Below are positions 21,094 to 56,873 of a stretch of DNA of 64,000 bases, piece by piece; the stretch's first letter is position 1, and each line of letters starts with the position of its first letter. The DNA comes from Natrinema salinisoli (GTDB lineage Archaea; Halobacteriota; Halobacteria; Halobacteriales; Natrialbaceae): assembly GCF_020405205.1 (NCBI RefSeq), contig NZ_CP084469.1:3224001-3288000 (forward strand), given 5' to 3'. Under the pieces are notes generated by a model. The model worked only from the letters and a program-made list of their open reading frames with translations. It searched no databases and was not told where the DNA came from. The translations under genes and the position numbers were made by a program.

Positions 21094-21507
21094 TCAGGCG
21101 TCGACCGGCCGCCCGTCCTCCGTCGGCGGCGCGATGTGATCGACGTACTCCTCGAGGGTCGGCTCCTCGACCCGAACGCGAACCGCGATCTCGCCGAGCT
21201 CGTCCGGTTTCCCGACCGAGAAATTGACGTAGTCCTCGAAGGCCGCCTGTTTCTTCAGCGCGAAGGTGAACGTGTCACCCTCGCGGTTGGCGAAGAACTC
21301 GCCCCGGGCGGTGTCGAGGATCTCCTGCCGGTGGAGCAGGTCCGAAAAGTGATCGAGCGTGTGGGTTTCGCCCCGAACTTCGCCGAACTCCTCCTCGAGG
21401 TCGGCGTTGGGGAAGACGTTGGCGACGGCGTCGACGACGCGACTCGTGACTTCGGTGTCGTAGACCGGTGCCGTGATCTCGACGTCGACGCGGTAAATCT
21501 CGCTCAT
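21094..21507 (-). CDS. UPF0201 family RNA-binding domain protein
   Basis: A 137-residue protein matching UPF0201 (DUF54): YRVDVEITAPVYDTEVTSRVVDAVANVFPNADLE at the start, then HTLDHFSDLLHRQEILDTARGEF. The fold resembles the ribosomal L5-type RNA-binding domain. Its ATG overlaps the stop of the UPF0200 kinase gene (ATGA). The conserved coupling to UPF0200 suggests that they act together, but no activity is established. Confidence 0.85.
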   Translation of the reverse strand: MSEIYRVDVEITAPVYDTEVTSRVVDAVANVFPNADLEEEFGEVRGETHTLDHFSDLLHRQEILDTARGEFFANREGDTFTFALKKQAAFEDYVNFSVGKPDELGEIAVRVRVEEPTLEEYVDHIAPPTEDGRPVDA

Positions 21508-22088
21508 GGGTCGGCTTCGGCCTCGGCGTGTTTCCCGTCGTCGGTTCCGGTCCGGACGATCGATCGGATCCGCTCGTGGAACGCCTCGAGCGAGTCGGTG
21601 TTCTCCACGACGACGTCGGCCCGATCCATCGCGTCGTCCATCCCGAAGCCCCGTTCGCGCTCGTCGCGGGCGGCTAGCCCCTCACCGCCGTCCGCCTCGC
21701 CGGCATCTCGGCCGCGCTCGTCGACCCGCTCGGCCCTGACTTCGAACGGTGCCTCGATACTGATCAGCGTGAACGCGTCGCCGAACCGCTCCTCGAAGGC
21801 GTCGACCTCGACGTCCGAGCGGATGCCGTCGACCAGCACCGTGTCGTGGGCCTCGAGTCGGTCTTCGATCATCGGGAGCGACCGCTCGGCGATCGCCGCC
21901 GGGCCGTTCTCCTCGCGCAGCGCCTGCGCGACCGTCCCGTGGTCCTTCGCGGGGTCGAGCCCGCGATCGGCCGTCTCCTGGCGGACGACGTCGCCCATCG
22001 TTACCACCGGGATCCCGTCCTCGCGTGCGATGGTGGCGGCCTCGCCCTTGCCGCTCCCGGGGAGTCCCACCGTTCCGATGACGTGCAT
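21504..22088 (-). CDS. UPF0200 family nucleoside/dephospho-CoA kinase-like protein
   Basis: A 194-residue P-loop kinase. The Walker A motif is GLPGSGKGEAA at residues 7-17; VTMGDVVR and VLVDGIRS are typical of AAA-type nucleotide kinases related to dephospho-CoA kinase and adenylate kinase. The ATG at 22088 places the P-loop at the usual distance from the N-terminus. It is the first gene of the UPF0200-UPF0201 operon. The substrate is unknown. Confidence 0.85.
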   Translation of the reverse strand: MHVIGTVGLPGSGKGEAATIAREDGIPVVTMGDVVRQETADRGLDPAKDHGTVAQALREENGPAAIAERSLPMIEDRLEAHDTVLVDGIRSDVEVDAFEERFGDAFTLISIEAPFEVRAERVDERGRDAGEADGGEGLAARDERERGFGMDDAMDRADVVVENTDSLEAFHERIRSIVRTGTDDGKHAEAEADP

Positions 22089-22406
22089 CGAGCACACGTA
22101 CCGGCGAGACGTGCATAAACGCTGTGTTCGGCGCTCGAGTCGCGGGCGGCTCCGAGACACCGCTCCTTGCTCTCGGCTTCGGACGCCCCGCCGGAGCCCT
22201 CTCCGTTCGTTTCGGGAGGTACGGATGGGAATCACCGCTTCTAGTAACGTGACGGGAGTCTATCGCGTCCTCGTCCGGCCGCGTCACTCGACGTTTCGCC
22301 GACCGGCGATCTGGGTACCGGTCGGGAACTCCTATCGCCTTTCTACGGCCCGATGAAAACCGAAATCCACACCGCTTATCAGGGTCCACCGCGGATTCGG
22401 ACTCGA
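22089..22406. other. Divergent intergenic region between UPF0200 and tRNA-Arg
   Basis: No gene seen. CTTATC (22375-22380) lies 27-32 nt before the tRNA and is its probable TATA element. Confidence 0.45.
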
Positions 22407-22481
22407 GGGCGCGTAGCTCAGTCCGGAAAGAGCGTCGGACTTCTAATCCGACGGTCGTGGGTTCAAATCCCATCGCGCCCG
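22407..22481 (+). tRNA. tRNA-Arg (anticodon TCT)
   Basis: A 75-nt cloverleaf without intron. Acceptor stem GGGCGCG (22407-22413) pairs with CGCGCCC (22474-22480), discriminator G22481. D stem GCTC/GAGC, anticodon stem TCGGA/TCCGA with loop CTTCTAA (anticodon TCT, reading AGA arginine codons), T arm with loop TTCAAAT. CCA is not encoded. Its 3' end is repeated downstream (see repeats). Confidence 0.97.
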
Positions 22482-22709
22482 TACAGCGAACGAAGTGAGC
22501 GAACCGGCACGTGGGATTTGAATGAGACCGAGGTTCTGCGCGAAGCGCAGGTTCTCGGGCGTGGTTCAAATCCCATTGCGCCCGTGATTCTGCGACGAAC
22601 GGACGTGAGGAACAAATTACCGACAGAGATGGGTTTGAACCCTGCCAGTCACAGCGTCGAACGGAGTGAGACGATCGTCTGGCTTCGGTTCATAATCCCA
22701 TCGCGCCCG
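22457..22709 (+). repeat. Partial copies of the tRNA-Arg 3' end, direct and inverted
   Basis: The tRNA T-arm/acceptor segment (22457-22481) recurs at 22561-22584 (GTGGTTCAAATCCCATTGCG then CCCG) and at 22687-22709 (GGTTCATAATCCCATCGCG then CCCG). Inverted T-arm copies lie at 22511-22522 (GTGGGATTTGAA) and 22628-22641 (GATGGGTTTGAACC). The spacers carry the GAACGAAGTGAG-type motif. tRNA 3' ends are the usual attachment sites of archaeal integrative elements, so the direct copies look like old att sites left by insertions that have since been lost. Confidence 0.8.
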
Positions 22710-22955
22710 CTTGCTGTCGCGAACAATTCGTGAGCCACAGCACTCGATGAGATGGGGTGAATGGGGGAGCAGCGTGCTGCGACCGTGGTTCGGGTCCGGT
22801 ACGTACGCGATCGGTCACCGTTCGACGACCGTCGAGAGACCGATCGATGCGATTGGGGTGGCGTCGTCAAGTAGTCCGCCGAACGCCGGAAACGCTGCAA
22901 AAAGCGCGAAATCACGCGGCTCGAATACCGCGAGTAGCTCGTCGGTCCTCGAGGC

Positions 22956-24290
22956 TCAGTCGTCGGAGGAGAGGATAGCAACGCCGCCCTCGTGTGCGTC
23001 GGAGCCAGCGCCGTAGATCCCGCCGAGCGTGTAGTCGTCACTCGCGACTGCGGTCCAGAACGACTGGCCGTCGGGGTTGTAGACGCCCGCCGCTTTGGGA
23101 TTGGACGGATCCGTGACATCGTAGCGTCGGACGCCACCGTTGTACCAGGACGCGTGGAGGTAGTCGTCGGTGACGTCGAAGTTGTGAGCGGTTCGCAGTC
23201 CCTCGGCGTCCGGCGGGGAAATGTAGCCGACCCGTTCGACGTGCTGTTTGCCGTCGTCGTCGAGCTCCTCCGTTCTGAAGATTCGGATGCCCCCGAACGC
23301 TTCGGTCGGGGGGTTTTCCTGTACCTGTCCGGGGAACTTCTCGTCGCCGACGTACACGTACTCGCCGTCGGGCGACGGCTGTACGTAATGCGTGTTGCCC
23401 TCGCCGGCGGAGTACCGTTCGGAGGGGAACGCCGCGTCGAAGAACTCCGAGCGGCTCTCCTCGCGGGGCCGCCAGGGTCTGAGTTCCTCGTCGCCGTCGG
23501 GTGCCGCACCGAACTGGGTGACGAAGCTCGGATCGGTCGGCTCGTCGACGTCGAGGACGACGACGCCGGCGTCCCAGAACGCGTTGTAGAGGAACCCGTC
23601 CTGTTCGTAGAGGTCGTGATTCGGGTTGATACCGGCGTCCGCGTAGTCGGGGAGCGCCTCGTGGAGGTACCACGTCGCCGCGCGCTCCGGACGCCTCGGG
23701 TCTTCGACGTCGACGATTTCGACGCCGGCGTTCCCGAAGATTCGGACGCCGACGCCCGCATCGTCCTGAATCATCCGGTCTCCGCTGATCGTCATGTAGA
23801 CCGTCTCGTCGGTGAGGAAGGCGTTGTGGACACCCACCGCGTCGAGAGTGTGATAGAACGCCAGCTCCTCGGGATCCGATGGATCGCTCACGTCCACCGT
23901 CGTGATTCCCGTCCCGTCGTCGTGGGCCATGATCGCAAGATCGTCGTCGACCTTGACGTCCAGTACGCCACCGGTGGCCCCTCTGTCGTCACCGCCGATC
24001 GCTTCCGGATCGGACGCTTCGATGTCCGCGACGACGTCCGGCTCGTTCGGGTCCTCCCAGTCGACGATCGCCATTCCGCGGCCGGTCGCCACGTACGCGT
24101 ACTCGTCGTCGGCGACGACTTCCATCGCGTTCTCGACGCCGGCCGCTGCAACGAGCGTCAGGGCATCGTCGTCGCCGCCGGATCGATCACTGCCCGCACC
24201 GCTCGCACTGCCGACGGCGCTGGTTGCGAGGCCGGTCCCAGCGAGTCCTTTTACCACGGTTCGTCGTGTCGGATTCGGATTTTGTACCAT
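22956..24290 (-). CDS. Secreted LVIVD-repeat (beta-propeller) protein with Tat signal
   Basis: A 444-residue protein. Twin-arginine signal (TRRTVVKGLAGTGLATSAVG) predicts folded export. The mature part is built from LVIVD-type repeats (GMAIVDWEDPNEPDVVADI, GITTVDVSDPSDPEELAFY, GVEIVDVEDPRRPERAATW, GVVVLDVDEPTDPSFVTQF, GVRRYDVTDPSNPKAAGVY), each a propeller blade. Such proteins are extracellular; enzymatic or adhesive roles are unproven. The ATG at 24290 is fixed by the Tat motif. The gene ends 250 bases after the tRNA-like repeats. Confidence 0.85.
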   Translation of the reverse strand: MVQNPNPTRRTVVKGLAGTGLATSAVGSASGAGSDRSGGDDDALTLVAAAGVENAMEVVADDEYAYVATGRGMAIVDWEDPNEPDVVADIEASDPEAIGGDDRGATGGVLDVKVDDDLAIMAHDDGTGITTVDVSDPSDPEELAFYHTLDAVGVHNAFLTDETVYMTISGDRMIQDDAGVGVRIFGNAGVEIVDVEDPRRPERAATWYLHEALPDYADAGINPNHDLYEQDGFLYNAFWDAGVVVLDVDEPTDPSFVTQFGAAPDGDEELRPWRPREESRSEFFDAAFPSERYSAGEGNTHYVQPSPDGEYVYVGDEKFPGQVQENPPTEAFGGIRIFRTEELDDDGKQHVERVGYISPPDAEGLRTAHNFDVTDDYLHASWYNGGVRRYDVTDPSNPKAAGVYNPDGQSFWTAVASDDYTLGGIYGAGSDAHEGGVAILSSDD

Positions 24291-25629
24291 AGTATCACTT
24301 CGTACGGAATTCCGTCTACGGATACATTCACGTGCCCGACGAGACGGTCGACGAGCTGCTTCGAAGCGGTTTCCAGCAGGCCGAAACGGAGCGAATCGAT
24401 CCGGAAAGCGGCCGTCCGAACGACAGTTCGGTACGGCTCCTCGGTAGCATCGGTATCGCCATCGCGCGTTTCCCGGCCGGTCTCTCGTTCCGTTGCATGC
24501 GGACTGTATCCGTCCCCAAAATATATACATTCAAATATTAGTATACACCAACTAATGACAGTACATACTCTAGATACCATCGGGAACCGTATCGTTCTTG
24601 AGGACATCCCTGTCGGTCGAAATGCTCTCCAGCGGTTCTGAGATGGACCTCTAAACGAATCGCTGGTCCCAAACGGATGGGATGTCCGTTGGGCGTTCTC
24701 GCCTGCACGAGTAGCGTGAACGCCCCTTGGTCGACGGTCAGCAGCGACCGCACTAGGTTCTCGACCGAACGGTTCCCGCTGAAGAAATACGAAATTTACT
24801 GGTGGAAATCACCATAGCAGTTTACTTTTGTGGGTGGCGACAGAACGAAGGATGGACGGAAGATTAGCCCGTTCGCAGGCGGTGATCCCCGATCGTATCG
24901 GCGTGTTCTGCCCGAAGTGAACCCGAAAAACGGAGAAGTACGGTTTTTGCTCGGCTGGACCCGAGAGTTCGTGTAACGATCGATACGAAATACCCACCAC
25001 AATTAACGGGTGATTCGACGGCCGTCACGCACGAGTAGCTCGATAGTAGCGTCACATCGATGAGGCTCCGTTCCTGTTCGACTAACCCATAGACGAGTTA
25101 GAGGCGACTCGGAACGAATCAGTAGTCCAGAAAATGTTGAATTATCGAACAATTTCGGTACACTAATGTCGGCCACTAACGTTAAATAGAACGTCGGCAG
25201 AGCCGTCCGACGGCATCACAGGGGATACGGGGGAGGCACTGATCATCGTCACACGACAGTCTCTATCCCTGCTGCCGACACGTGTACACCCTTTCGATAC
25301 CCGACAGCAGTAGCCGCCGGTGTTTGCGCTCGACCGAATCGCCTGAGTGAATACCCCTCCGTTCGGGTCTACGTCCCGAGCAGGTGGGTCTCGGCCGCAC
25401 GCCAGCATCTCCGCGCTGTCGAATCCACTTCGGCTACGACGCCCACGGAACGCTCCCTTCGCGGAGCCGATGGCCGAACGACCTCTAGTGACGTATTGGC
25501 CCGATCACGGTTCACGTCGTCCGTTAGCGGCACGGTACGATGCTCCTCAGGGCCACTAACACTGATGTTACGTGGTGGCTCCGGGGTTGCTACCGTATTG
25601 ATACTCCTGTGGTAACACTATGTAACTAC
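24291..25629. other. 1.3-kb stretch without supported gene
   Basis: Codon use is irregular and frames are short. An AT-rich patch (24517-24550, with ATATATAC and TATTAGTATAC) interrupts otherwise GC-rich DNA. A minus-strand frame at 24538-24753 and overlapping frames at 24796-25055 have no motif I recognise. The block could be decayed insertion-sequence DNA, but no terminal repeats or transposase motif were found. The promoter of the next gene lies in the last 60 bases. Confidence 0.4.
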
Positions 25630-55847: not shown

Positions 55848-56873
55848 ATGTCACACGACGAACTGGAAGAACTTGAACCTGAACAGGCACTCGAGATGTA
55901 TATTGAGTCTCAGCGCCACGAACTGCGAGAATCTACCATCAAAAGTAAGCGATCCCGCTTAGGGATGTTCGTCGACCATTGTAGAGAGAACGACATAGCG
56001 TCTCTGACGGATCTTGACGGCATTGATCTGCACGAGTATCGAATTGAACAGGCAGAGGGAATAGCTCGCCGTACGCTCGTCTCTCGGCTTTCTTCACTCC
56101 GTGTTTTCCTCAGATGGGCCGAATCAATTGGAGCTGTTGAGCAAGGATTCCACGAGAAGGTAATCGTTCCCGATGTGGACAGCAGACGTTCCAGTATGAT
56201 CAACTCAGACCGCGCTCAGACGATTTTAGAATACCTGAGACGGTACGAGTATGCCAGTCGGGATCATCTCGTCATACGCTTATTCTGGCGTACTGGGATG
56301 CGTCTCGGAGCGTTACGCGGCCTCGATCTTGATGACTACTTTCCCAGTGGAAACGACGAAACGGATGAGCCATTTCTCCAGCTGCATCACCGCCCCGACA
56401 CAGGCACTCCGTTGAAGAACGGCAAAGCAGGGGAACGGCCAGTTGGGATATCAGATGAAACACGGCTATTGATCGACGACTACCTCGAGAATAACCGAGT
56501 TGATATCACAGACAACAACGGACGGGCATCTTTACTAACGACCAAGCGAGGGAGACCAGGAATAGCAACATTCAGACGCACCGTGTACCGATACACGCGG
56601 CCCTGTGCAGTCGGTGAAGACTGTCCGCATGATCGTACGCCATCGGACTGCGAAGCAACTGAGAACACCGACAAAGCGTCTCTGTGTCCGTCAACGGTAT
56701 CACCGCATGACGTCCGACGTGGTGCGATAACCCACCTTCTCCGAAACGATGTGCCGAAACCGATTGTCTCCGATCGATGCGATGTAAGTCCTGATGTGCT
56801 TGACAAACACTATGATCAACGATCGGACCTCGAGAAAATGGAACAGCGACGGAACTATCTGGATAACCTCTAA
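55848..56873 (+). CDS. Tyrosine recombinase/integrase
   Basis: A 341-residue site-specific recombinase. Residues 10-95 form a SAM-like core-binding domain (LEMYIESQRHELRESTIKSKRSRLGMFVDHC, then RRTLVSRLSSLRVFLRWAE). The catalytic domain has the first arginine in FWRTGMRLGALRGLDLDDY (~155), the H-x-x-R box SPHDVRRGAITHLL (~295) and the tyrosine in LDKHYDQ (~325). An internal Cys-rich stretch (CAVGEDCPHDRTPSDC) lies before box II, common in haloarchaeal integrases. It adjoins attL and reads in the same direction as tfb, so the tfb promoter can drive it. Confidence 0.93.
   Translation: MSHDELEELEPEQALEMYIESQRHELRESTIKSKRSRLGMFVDHCRENDIASLTDLDGIDLHEYRIEQAEGIARRTLVSRLSSLRVFLRWAESIGAVEQGFHEKVIVPDVDSRRSSMINSDRAQTILEYLRRYEYASRDHLVIRLFWRTGMRLGALRGLDLDDYFPSGNDETDEPFLQLHHRPDTGTPLKNGKAGERPVGISDETRLLIDDYLENNRVDITDNNGRASLLTTKRGRPGIATFRRTVYRYTRPCAVGEDCPHDRTPSDCEATENTDKASLCPSTVSPHDVRRGAITHLLRNDVPKPIVSDRCDVSPDVLDKHYDQRSDLEKMEQRRNYLDNL

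Follow-up and report, generated by a model that had tools for sequence, protein, structure and literature searches.

The tRNA-Arg(TCT) gene of Natrinema salinisoli is followed by an array of short repeated units that combine two hairpins with an inverted and a direct copy of the tRNA 3' end, and this locus is one member of a Halobacteria-wide family of such arrays. Each unit runs from a module A hairpin through an inverted tRNA 3' end and a module B hairpin to a direct copy of the last ~20 nt of the tRNA, with a median length of 114 bp (quartiles 103-135; because the proximal unit falls inside the A segment of a distal hairpin, some bases are counted twice here and in the specificity and motif statistics below). 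We observed that the arrays are tRNA-specific, decay in a polar manner and fold strand-specifically, that whole units are gained, lost and reordered, and that A and B modules are swapped at tRNA-end copies. We tentatively interpret them as tRNA-anchored, polar, cassette-like non-coding arrays that recombine at tRNA-end sites by means of an inferred enzyme in trans, a reading to which we give slightly less than an even chance.

Results

The array downstream of tRNA-Arg(TCT)

The window is the whole 64,000-nt stretch analysed here (contig NZ_CP084469.1, positions 3,224,001 to 3,288,000). tRNA-Arg(TCT) lies at 22407-22481 on the plus strand (ARAGORN, Rfam RF00005 and genome scan), and the sequence copied in the array is its T-loop to discriminator, 22461-22481. 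Module A of unit 1 (22482-22503, plus strand), defined from the sequence and motif statistics, contains the GCGAACGAAGTGAGC hairpin at 22486-22500, which has tandem G.A pairs and a GAA triloop. GAACGAAGTGAG lies at 22488-22499, and variants of it are GAACGGAGTGAG (22659-22670) and a GA-rich stretch at 22592-22613. The inverted copy of the tRNA 3' end follows at 22504-22522 on the minus strand, as judged by sequence, folding and a shuffle score of 11/14, compared to 9 at the shuffled 95th percentile. Module B (GACCGAGGTTCTGCGC GAA GCGCAGGTTCTCGGGCG; 22523-22563, plus strand) was delimited from the sequence and by comparison with congeners, where its loop type recurs at Leu, Ser, Phe and Arg(CCT) tRNAs. 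The direct copy of the tRNA 3' end (22564-22584, plus strand) closes the unit with 20/21 identity, against 13/21 at the shuffled 95th percentile.

Unit 2 follows the same plan. Its module A (22585-22627, plus strand), read from the sequence, holds a partly decayed hairpin with two tandem-G.A modules at 22592-22613, and this module type is also found at the orthologous tRNA in three other genomes (G302, G202 and G304). An inverted T-arm copy (22628-22639, minus strand; sequence and folding), a module B (22640-22687, plus strand; sequence) with the inner hairpin GTCGAACGGAGTGAGAC at 22656-22672, and a direct tRNA 3'-end copy with one inserted base (22688-22709, plus strand; 78% identity over 23 nt) complete it. 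The inverted copies extend past the T-arm towards the acceptor end. The two direct and two inverted copies that the first-pass annotation described as alternating after tRNA-Arg are real, and its list missed a third, decayed unit (22710-22797, plus strand), which we recognized by its likeness to intact units of that type. This unit consists of the A hairpin CTGTCGCGAACAATTCGTGAGCCACAG, an inverted remnant (22751-22761), a B module and a direct remnant (22788-22797), and its inner GGGGGAGCAGC..GCTGCGACCGTGGTTC is the B type found at tRNA-Thr(CGT) of the same genome. The array is flanked by a kinase-like AAA gene (adenylate-kinase-like; 21504-22235, minus strand) on the left and an LVIVD-repeat gene (22956-24530, minus strand) on the right, neither of which is an obvious partner of it.

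Each direct copy and the inverted copy to its left enclose module B in a long imperfect hairpin, and module A forms a second hairpin, placed after the tRNA or a direct copy and before the inverted copy that follows. The block folds with a z-score of -2.85 with DNA parameters and of -4.13 with RNA parameters, the latter with the tRNA included. At a tRNA-Lys gene, four identical 111-bp units adjoin the tRNA (L387), and a single strand of this four-fold repeated unit, folded as a circle, gives a dumbbell in which the tRNA end forms the stem. The T-arm stem and B hairpin are retained in unit 1 of the window, where the A side folds less simply, and the older unit 2 folds less cleanly than unit 1. 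These folding models suggest that a single strand of one unit can form a dumbbell in which the tRNA 3' end, as a duplex, makes up the stem.

Distribution and linkage to tRNA genes

In the N. salinisoli genome, 14 of the 46 tRNA genes are followed within 350 nt by a copy of the gene's own last 21 nt (at least 17/21 matching, a tRNA-Asp pair being excluded from the 14). Upstream of the 46 tRNAs we found no such copy save at tRNA-Asp, where the match is the neighbouring identical tRNA-Asp. Across the 46 downstream regions, inner modules are shared and arms are tRNA-specific (Thr, Gly, Ile, Lys, Val, Ser, His, Leu and Met). The pattern GGATTTGAA, 20 to 50 nt, TTCAAATCC is present in 226/292 sampled Halobacteria genomes, and a reversed control pattern gave zero matches in any row of this 292-genome scan. 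In a phylum sample of 294 genomes, the pattern occurs in 42/53 Halobacteria rows and 0/241 others, and a variant with TTCGAATCC arms in 35/53 and 0/241. A scan of named genomes gave 80 titles among the matches listed, all haloarchaeal except one 'Euryarchaeota archaeon'; absence of a species from these listed matches carries no meaning.

The first-pass annotation had suggested looking for the alternating pattern behind other haloarchaeal tRNAs, and there it was found. We collected 163 hairpins in 150 loci, 30 from the class scan and 120 from the named-genome scan (at least 120 matches), the latter selected with a pattern in which part of module B is fixed. A total of 143 hairpins follow a tRNA on its own strand at a distance of 32-366 nt, and they cover 29 tRNA species; this count sought tRNAs with a hairpin downstream on the same strand, and other placements were judged from the list of unassigned hairpins. 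We read the 20 unassigned hairpins singly. Five follow a tRNA end overlooked by ARAGORN (L292, L307, L367, L316 and L371), the first three of which presumably resemble intron-bearing tRNA-Trp, bringing the tRNA-adjacent total to 148/163. Another five are at the edge of their locus, and their direct copy equals or nearly equals a known tRNA tail (L266, L269, L288, L310 and L324), two lie behind a short att-like tRNA end, or att core (L339 and L358), and eight are without explanation (L066, L073, L274, L287, L315, L340, L347 and L355). A block far from any tRNA, which the annotation regarded as the mark of a general dispersed repeat, was sought among these hairpins, and we rejected that candidate because 148/163 adjoin tRNAs. 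As a separate observation, L274, L287, L315 and L355 are B hairpins with no adjoining tRNA or tRNA end, and the inverted arm of each closes with GGTCGG or a close variant, which is complementary to a tRNA-Trp-like end.

Both arms follow the local tRNA. Outside the invariant TTCAAATCC, the direct copy agrees with its own tRNA at 10.27/11 positions, compared to 5.21 (maximum 5.58) in permutations, and is perfect in 103/143 cases; the inverted arm scores 3.20 against its own tRNA, compared to 1.81 (maximum 2.08). The acceptor half of the inverted arm is weakly tRNA-specific (4.63 versus a permuted mean of 4.30 and maximum of 4.47). These permutations and all counts given here ignore the relatedness of the genomes. 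The T-loop bases of the two arms covary (T/A 94, C/G 43, C/A 10 and T/G 3, by hand count of 150 rows among the matches listed); a second count, on fetched loci, is biased by the way the loci were fetched. The B loops are identical at two different tRNA species in 3/129 cases, and 107/129 form a loose cluster that spans 28 tRNA species.

Polar decay, gain, loss and reordering of units

For the 49 tRNAs with at least two copies, the proximal copy is better kept than the distal copy in 30, equally kept in 18 and worse kept in 1, so the arrays seem to grow at the tRNA. Proximal growth with repeat duplication is known from CRISPR arrays and from casposon insertion at tRNA ends. A Cas1- or casposase-like insertion of ~90-bp hairpin DNA at the tRNA 3' end, with a ~20-bp target duplicated as in CRISPR growth, would give tRNA specificity and polarity automatically, and it fits the polar decay, the apparent tRNA-proximal growth and a direct copy that always suits the local tRNA. 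It leaves the tRNA-specific inverted arm and the reordering of existing units unexplained, and the arrays further differ from CRISPR and casposons in that the repeat is the tRNA end itself and the intervening modules are shared hairpins. We consider such a mechanism quite improbable.

Whole units and single modules vary among congeners. Among 29 congeners, N. salinisoli counted, the start of a unit lies beside the orthologous tRNA-Arg in 18 and no unit in 11, and one A module type is paired with differing B modules. One B module plus flank is paired with differing A modules in L210 and L211, and one A module is 1.00 identical between two congeners while its B module matches another unit. Two congeners have 2 versus 5 units in the tRNA-Ser array, and the same two have the units of the tRNA-Gly array in changed order, with conserved flanks at these compared loci (279/300 and 289/300 upstream, 127/152 and 145/149 downstream); the genomes compared are species representatives, with no strict empty/filled strain pair among them. 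Shufflon-like switching by inversion was considered and set aside: the loci read by eye show one module orientation relative to the tRNA, making frequent inversion unlikely.

The acceptor strand of tRNA-Arg(TCT) (L190-L218) has two alleles in the genus, CGCG (GCG) and CGTG (GTG), probably exchanged by integrating elements; GCG occurs with unit A in 8/8 cases and GTG with the others in 21/21. In congener G298, tRNA-Arg has the other 3' allele and no unit, and a GCG copy with a unit-C start lies on another contig. By its sequence, this arrangement is as expected if an element had exchanged the tRNA end, and the separate contigs leave proof out of reach. The allele association fails as proof of unit mobility, because GTG may arrive with large elements that displace the GCG copy, as in G298. 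The proximal and distal copies at tRNA-Arg mostly carry the same allele, whereas the distal copy would be expected to keep the old one if units brought a new tRNA end. The congener tree, built from short upstream DNA with many gaps, is poorly resolved (6/26 inner branches starred).

Large integrated elements at the same tRNA ends

tRNA 3' ends are classic landing sites of archaeal mobile DNA. In the N. salinisoli genome, a ~20-kb element parts tRNA-Ala(CGC) from its unit (G000:C1:2286146-2305962; L221 and L223), with a 15-nt tRNA end at the junction and a Phage_integrase (tyrosine recombinase) match beside the far end. At tRNA-Arg(CCT) (G000:C1:279506-296578; L222), a ~17-kb stretch that looks like another integrated element lies between the tRNA and a 13-nt copy of its end, after which the unit begins. 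These large elements leave a tRNA-end copy of 13-15 bp with no inverted arm and sit between the tRNA and the units, and the units mark the integration site but are not the ends of large elements. The units share with integrative elements the arrangement of an element between a tRNA and a direct copy of its 3' end and, at ~114 bp, are too short for an integrase of their own. The sole tyrosine recombinase match in the window is a weak Phage_integrase match at 56199-56774 (26.7 bits, 30.7 with neighbours; open frame of 347 aa), no Phage_integrase match lies within about 33 kb of the array, and the genome has 12 in all.

The direct copies could each be an old attR from large mobile elements that integrated at the tRNA and were lost, one after another. 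Such elements do use these tRNA ends, and archaeal integrated elements are described as carrying short tRNA-end repeats (PMC8371274). We find this history very improbable and rejected it as the main account of the array copies: what the elements leave is short, lacks the inverted arm and lies between tRNA and units, and the units are uniform in size with class-wide modules. Serial integration and loss, as proposed in the first-pass annotation, therefore holds insofar as whole units differ between species, and not in the sense of scars of large elements. Its view that the inverted copies do not follow from ordinary integration is borne out. Palindrome formation or template switching, which it offered instead, is insufficient as a one-off event, because the inverted copies are a regular part of the repeated unit class-wide.

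The block had no match in 50,697 phage records and one weak match in 72,556 plasmids. In a scan of viral contigs (106 stretches), none of the 18 matches listed for loci of at least 50% GC has haloarchaeal modules. GC-rich viral contigs (L115, L127, L131, L146, L148, L175 and L186) carry near-perfect palindromes, GGATTTGAACC...GGTTCAAATCCAT, with GCGGGGCAT-like flanks, which by their sequence appear to be a tRNA-end palindrome of another kind.

Other sequences were noticed near tRNAs. At tRNA-Pro(TGG), a long module that starts with TGGACCTTTTTCATCG and ends in the last ten tRNA bases, GGCGGTCCCA, adjoins the tRNA in one genome and lies behind a hairpin unit in a congener (L393 and L394); on sequence grounds we take it for a second type of cassette that differs from the units. 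A similar short sequence (GTGGTC.GCGTGACGGTCGC.CC.TGGCCGTCGG...CACTGCGG) recurs shortly after several tRNAs, namely tRNA-Met (3504226) and tRNA-Pro (3293188 and 2044338) of N. salinisoli and tRNA-Arg in L196, L200, L201, L209 and L213, and may be a small gene that closes integrated elements. Three tRNA-Ala(TGC) genes of N. salinisoli (696704, 2806034 and 3508466) share an identical 260-nt downstream sequence with no units, and presumably lie in rRNA operons.

Strand asymmetry of the hairpins

The tRNA-sense strand of the hairpins has 144 GA/GA tandem mismatches versus 2 TC/TC (17.7 kb, partly overlapping), compared to 47 and 31 in 100 kb of background DNA. There are 80 C(GNA)G triloops, compared to 17 of the complementary form, and 21 GGA/GGA versus 1. 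GNA triloops, GGA/GGA and tandem G.A pairs belong to the chemistry of DNA mini-hairpins. No RNA-like bias is seen, with 13 GNRA tetraloops versus 8 for the complement, 1 UUCG, and 45 G.T versus 39 A.C mismatches. Among units within 100 nt of a tRNA, the sense strand folds better than the antisense strand in 105/117 with DNA parameters and in 111/117 with RNA parameters. The asymmetry in motifs and folding indicates a strand-specific folded strand, and the motif counts, together with known DNA-hairpin chemistry, make DNA more likely than RNA.

The units could instead be structured RNA, transcribed as tRNA 3' trailers or small RNAs, with hairpins selected for processing, termination or competition for tRNA enzymes and with changes made by ordinary tandem duplication and deletion. 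The better folding of the sense strand with RNA parameters, the commonness of tandem G.A pairs in RNA and the position of all 143 assigned hairpins downstream of a tRNA on the same strand are consistent with it. Against it stand the mismatch and tetraloop counts above, the excess of C/A over T/G mismatches in the T-loop among the matches listed, which is opposite to wobble tolerance, and the 11/29 congeners with no unit beside tRNA-Arg. In addition, TTTT lies within 12 nt of the tRNA end in 46/143 cases, so many trailers may stop before the unit, and Rfam at gathering thresholds finds no family besides tRNA in the whole window. We regard structured RNA as an unlikely but serious reading.

Replication template switching and hairpin correction at tRNA genes might also make and homogenize inverted copies as a mutational by-product, with no enzyme and no function. 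The inverted arms do track the tRNA, and the four identical tandem units at tRNA-Lys show local amplification. This origin is improbable given the conserved B modules common to 28 tRNA species, the regular unit length, the strand-specific G.A chemistry and the confinement to one class, none of which is expected from a generic process.

Discussion

We favour cassette-like arrays that recombine at tRNA-end sites, probably via a putative tRNA-targeting recombinase. Units would insert at the tRNA end, and recombination between tRNA-end copies would delete or shuffle them. A candidate catalyst, acting in trans on tRNA 3' ends, is a tyrosine recombinase like the SNJ2-type integrases that haloarchaeal mobile elements carry. 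The sense strand may act as a folded single DNA strand, and correction of one arm inside the hairpin could keep the inverted arm matched to the tRNA. A circle carrying the end of one tRNA and inserting at another would swap the acceptor strand, so modules could pass from tRNA to tRNA only with a further step, and no account explains this spread fully.

Integron arrays, built on attI and attC, are polar at one anchor, have imperfect-palindrome sites that fold on one strand, gain, lose and reorder units, keep intI beside the anchor and carry gene cassettes. The arrays described here are likewise polar at one anchor, their units are bounded by strand-specific imperfect hairpins, and whole-unit gain, loss or reordering at one anchor is seen at two tRNA loci in two congeners. 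They differ from integrons in that the anchor is a tRNA gene, the sites are copies of the end of that tRNA, no tyrosine recombinase gene lies beside the array in the window, and the ~114-bp units have no gene noticed by eye. A bolder reading, which we think possible although rather doubtful, is that haloarchaeal tRNA genes are anchors of integron-like arrays, in which dumbbell single-stranded DNA cassettes are captured, excised and shuffled by recombinases in trans.

The tRNA-targeted elements with SNJ2-type integrases resemble the units in using the tRNA 3' end as target and having a direct copy at the far side; here, unlike the units, they measure kilobases, have 13-15 bp cores and no inverted arm, and are inserted between tRNA and units. 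Bacterial REP/RAYT palindromes are strand-specific, clustered hairpins dispersed between genes with no tRNA copy; the array hairpins are also strand-specific and clustered, but they are tied to tRNA ends and carry tRNA copies. The MITEs, PATEs and small mobile repeats of Haloquadratum are described as families of mobile copies with terminal inverted repeats or near-terminal palindromes (PMC3119063). The arrays resemble them in being short, non-coding, palindromic, haloarchaeal and mobile-looking (PMC3119063), and differ in that their termini follow the local tRNA instead of being fixed and their position is tied to tRNA 3' ends (148/163). A full-text literature search, with most subscription papers outside its coverage, found no published account of the arrays, and we rate them, on this partial coverage, as belonging to none of the known kinds tested.

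An array that is found throughout a class, is specific to its tRNA, is polar and reshuffles would amount to a cassette system of a second kind, one with no obvious enzyme of its own. For provirus annotation, the arrays are a warning that a tRNA-end copy close to a haloarchaeal tRNA is not necessarily the end of a provirus. The arrays also offer a natural genome-wide set of tRNA-specific inverted and direct site pairs for testing archaeal integrases and single-strand recombination. They would be a fossil record of recombination at each tRNA gene and, if the integron-like reading is true, the stem mimics the tRNA gene's own end and each tRNA gene can hold a private series of cassettes.
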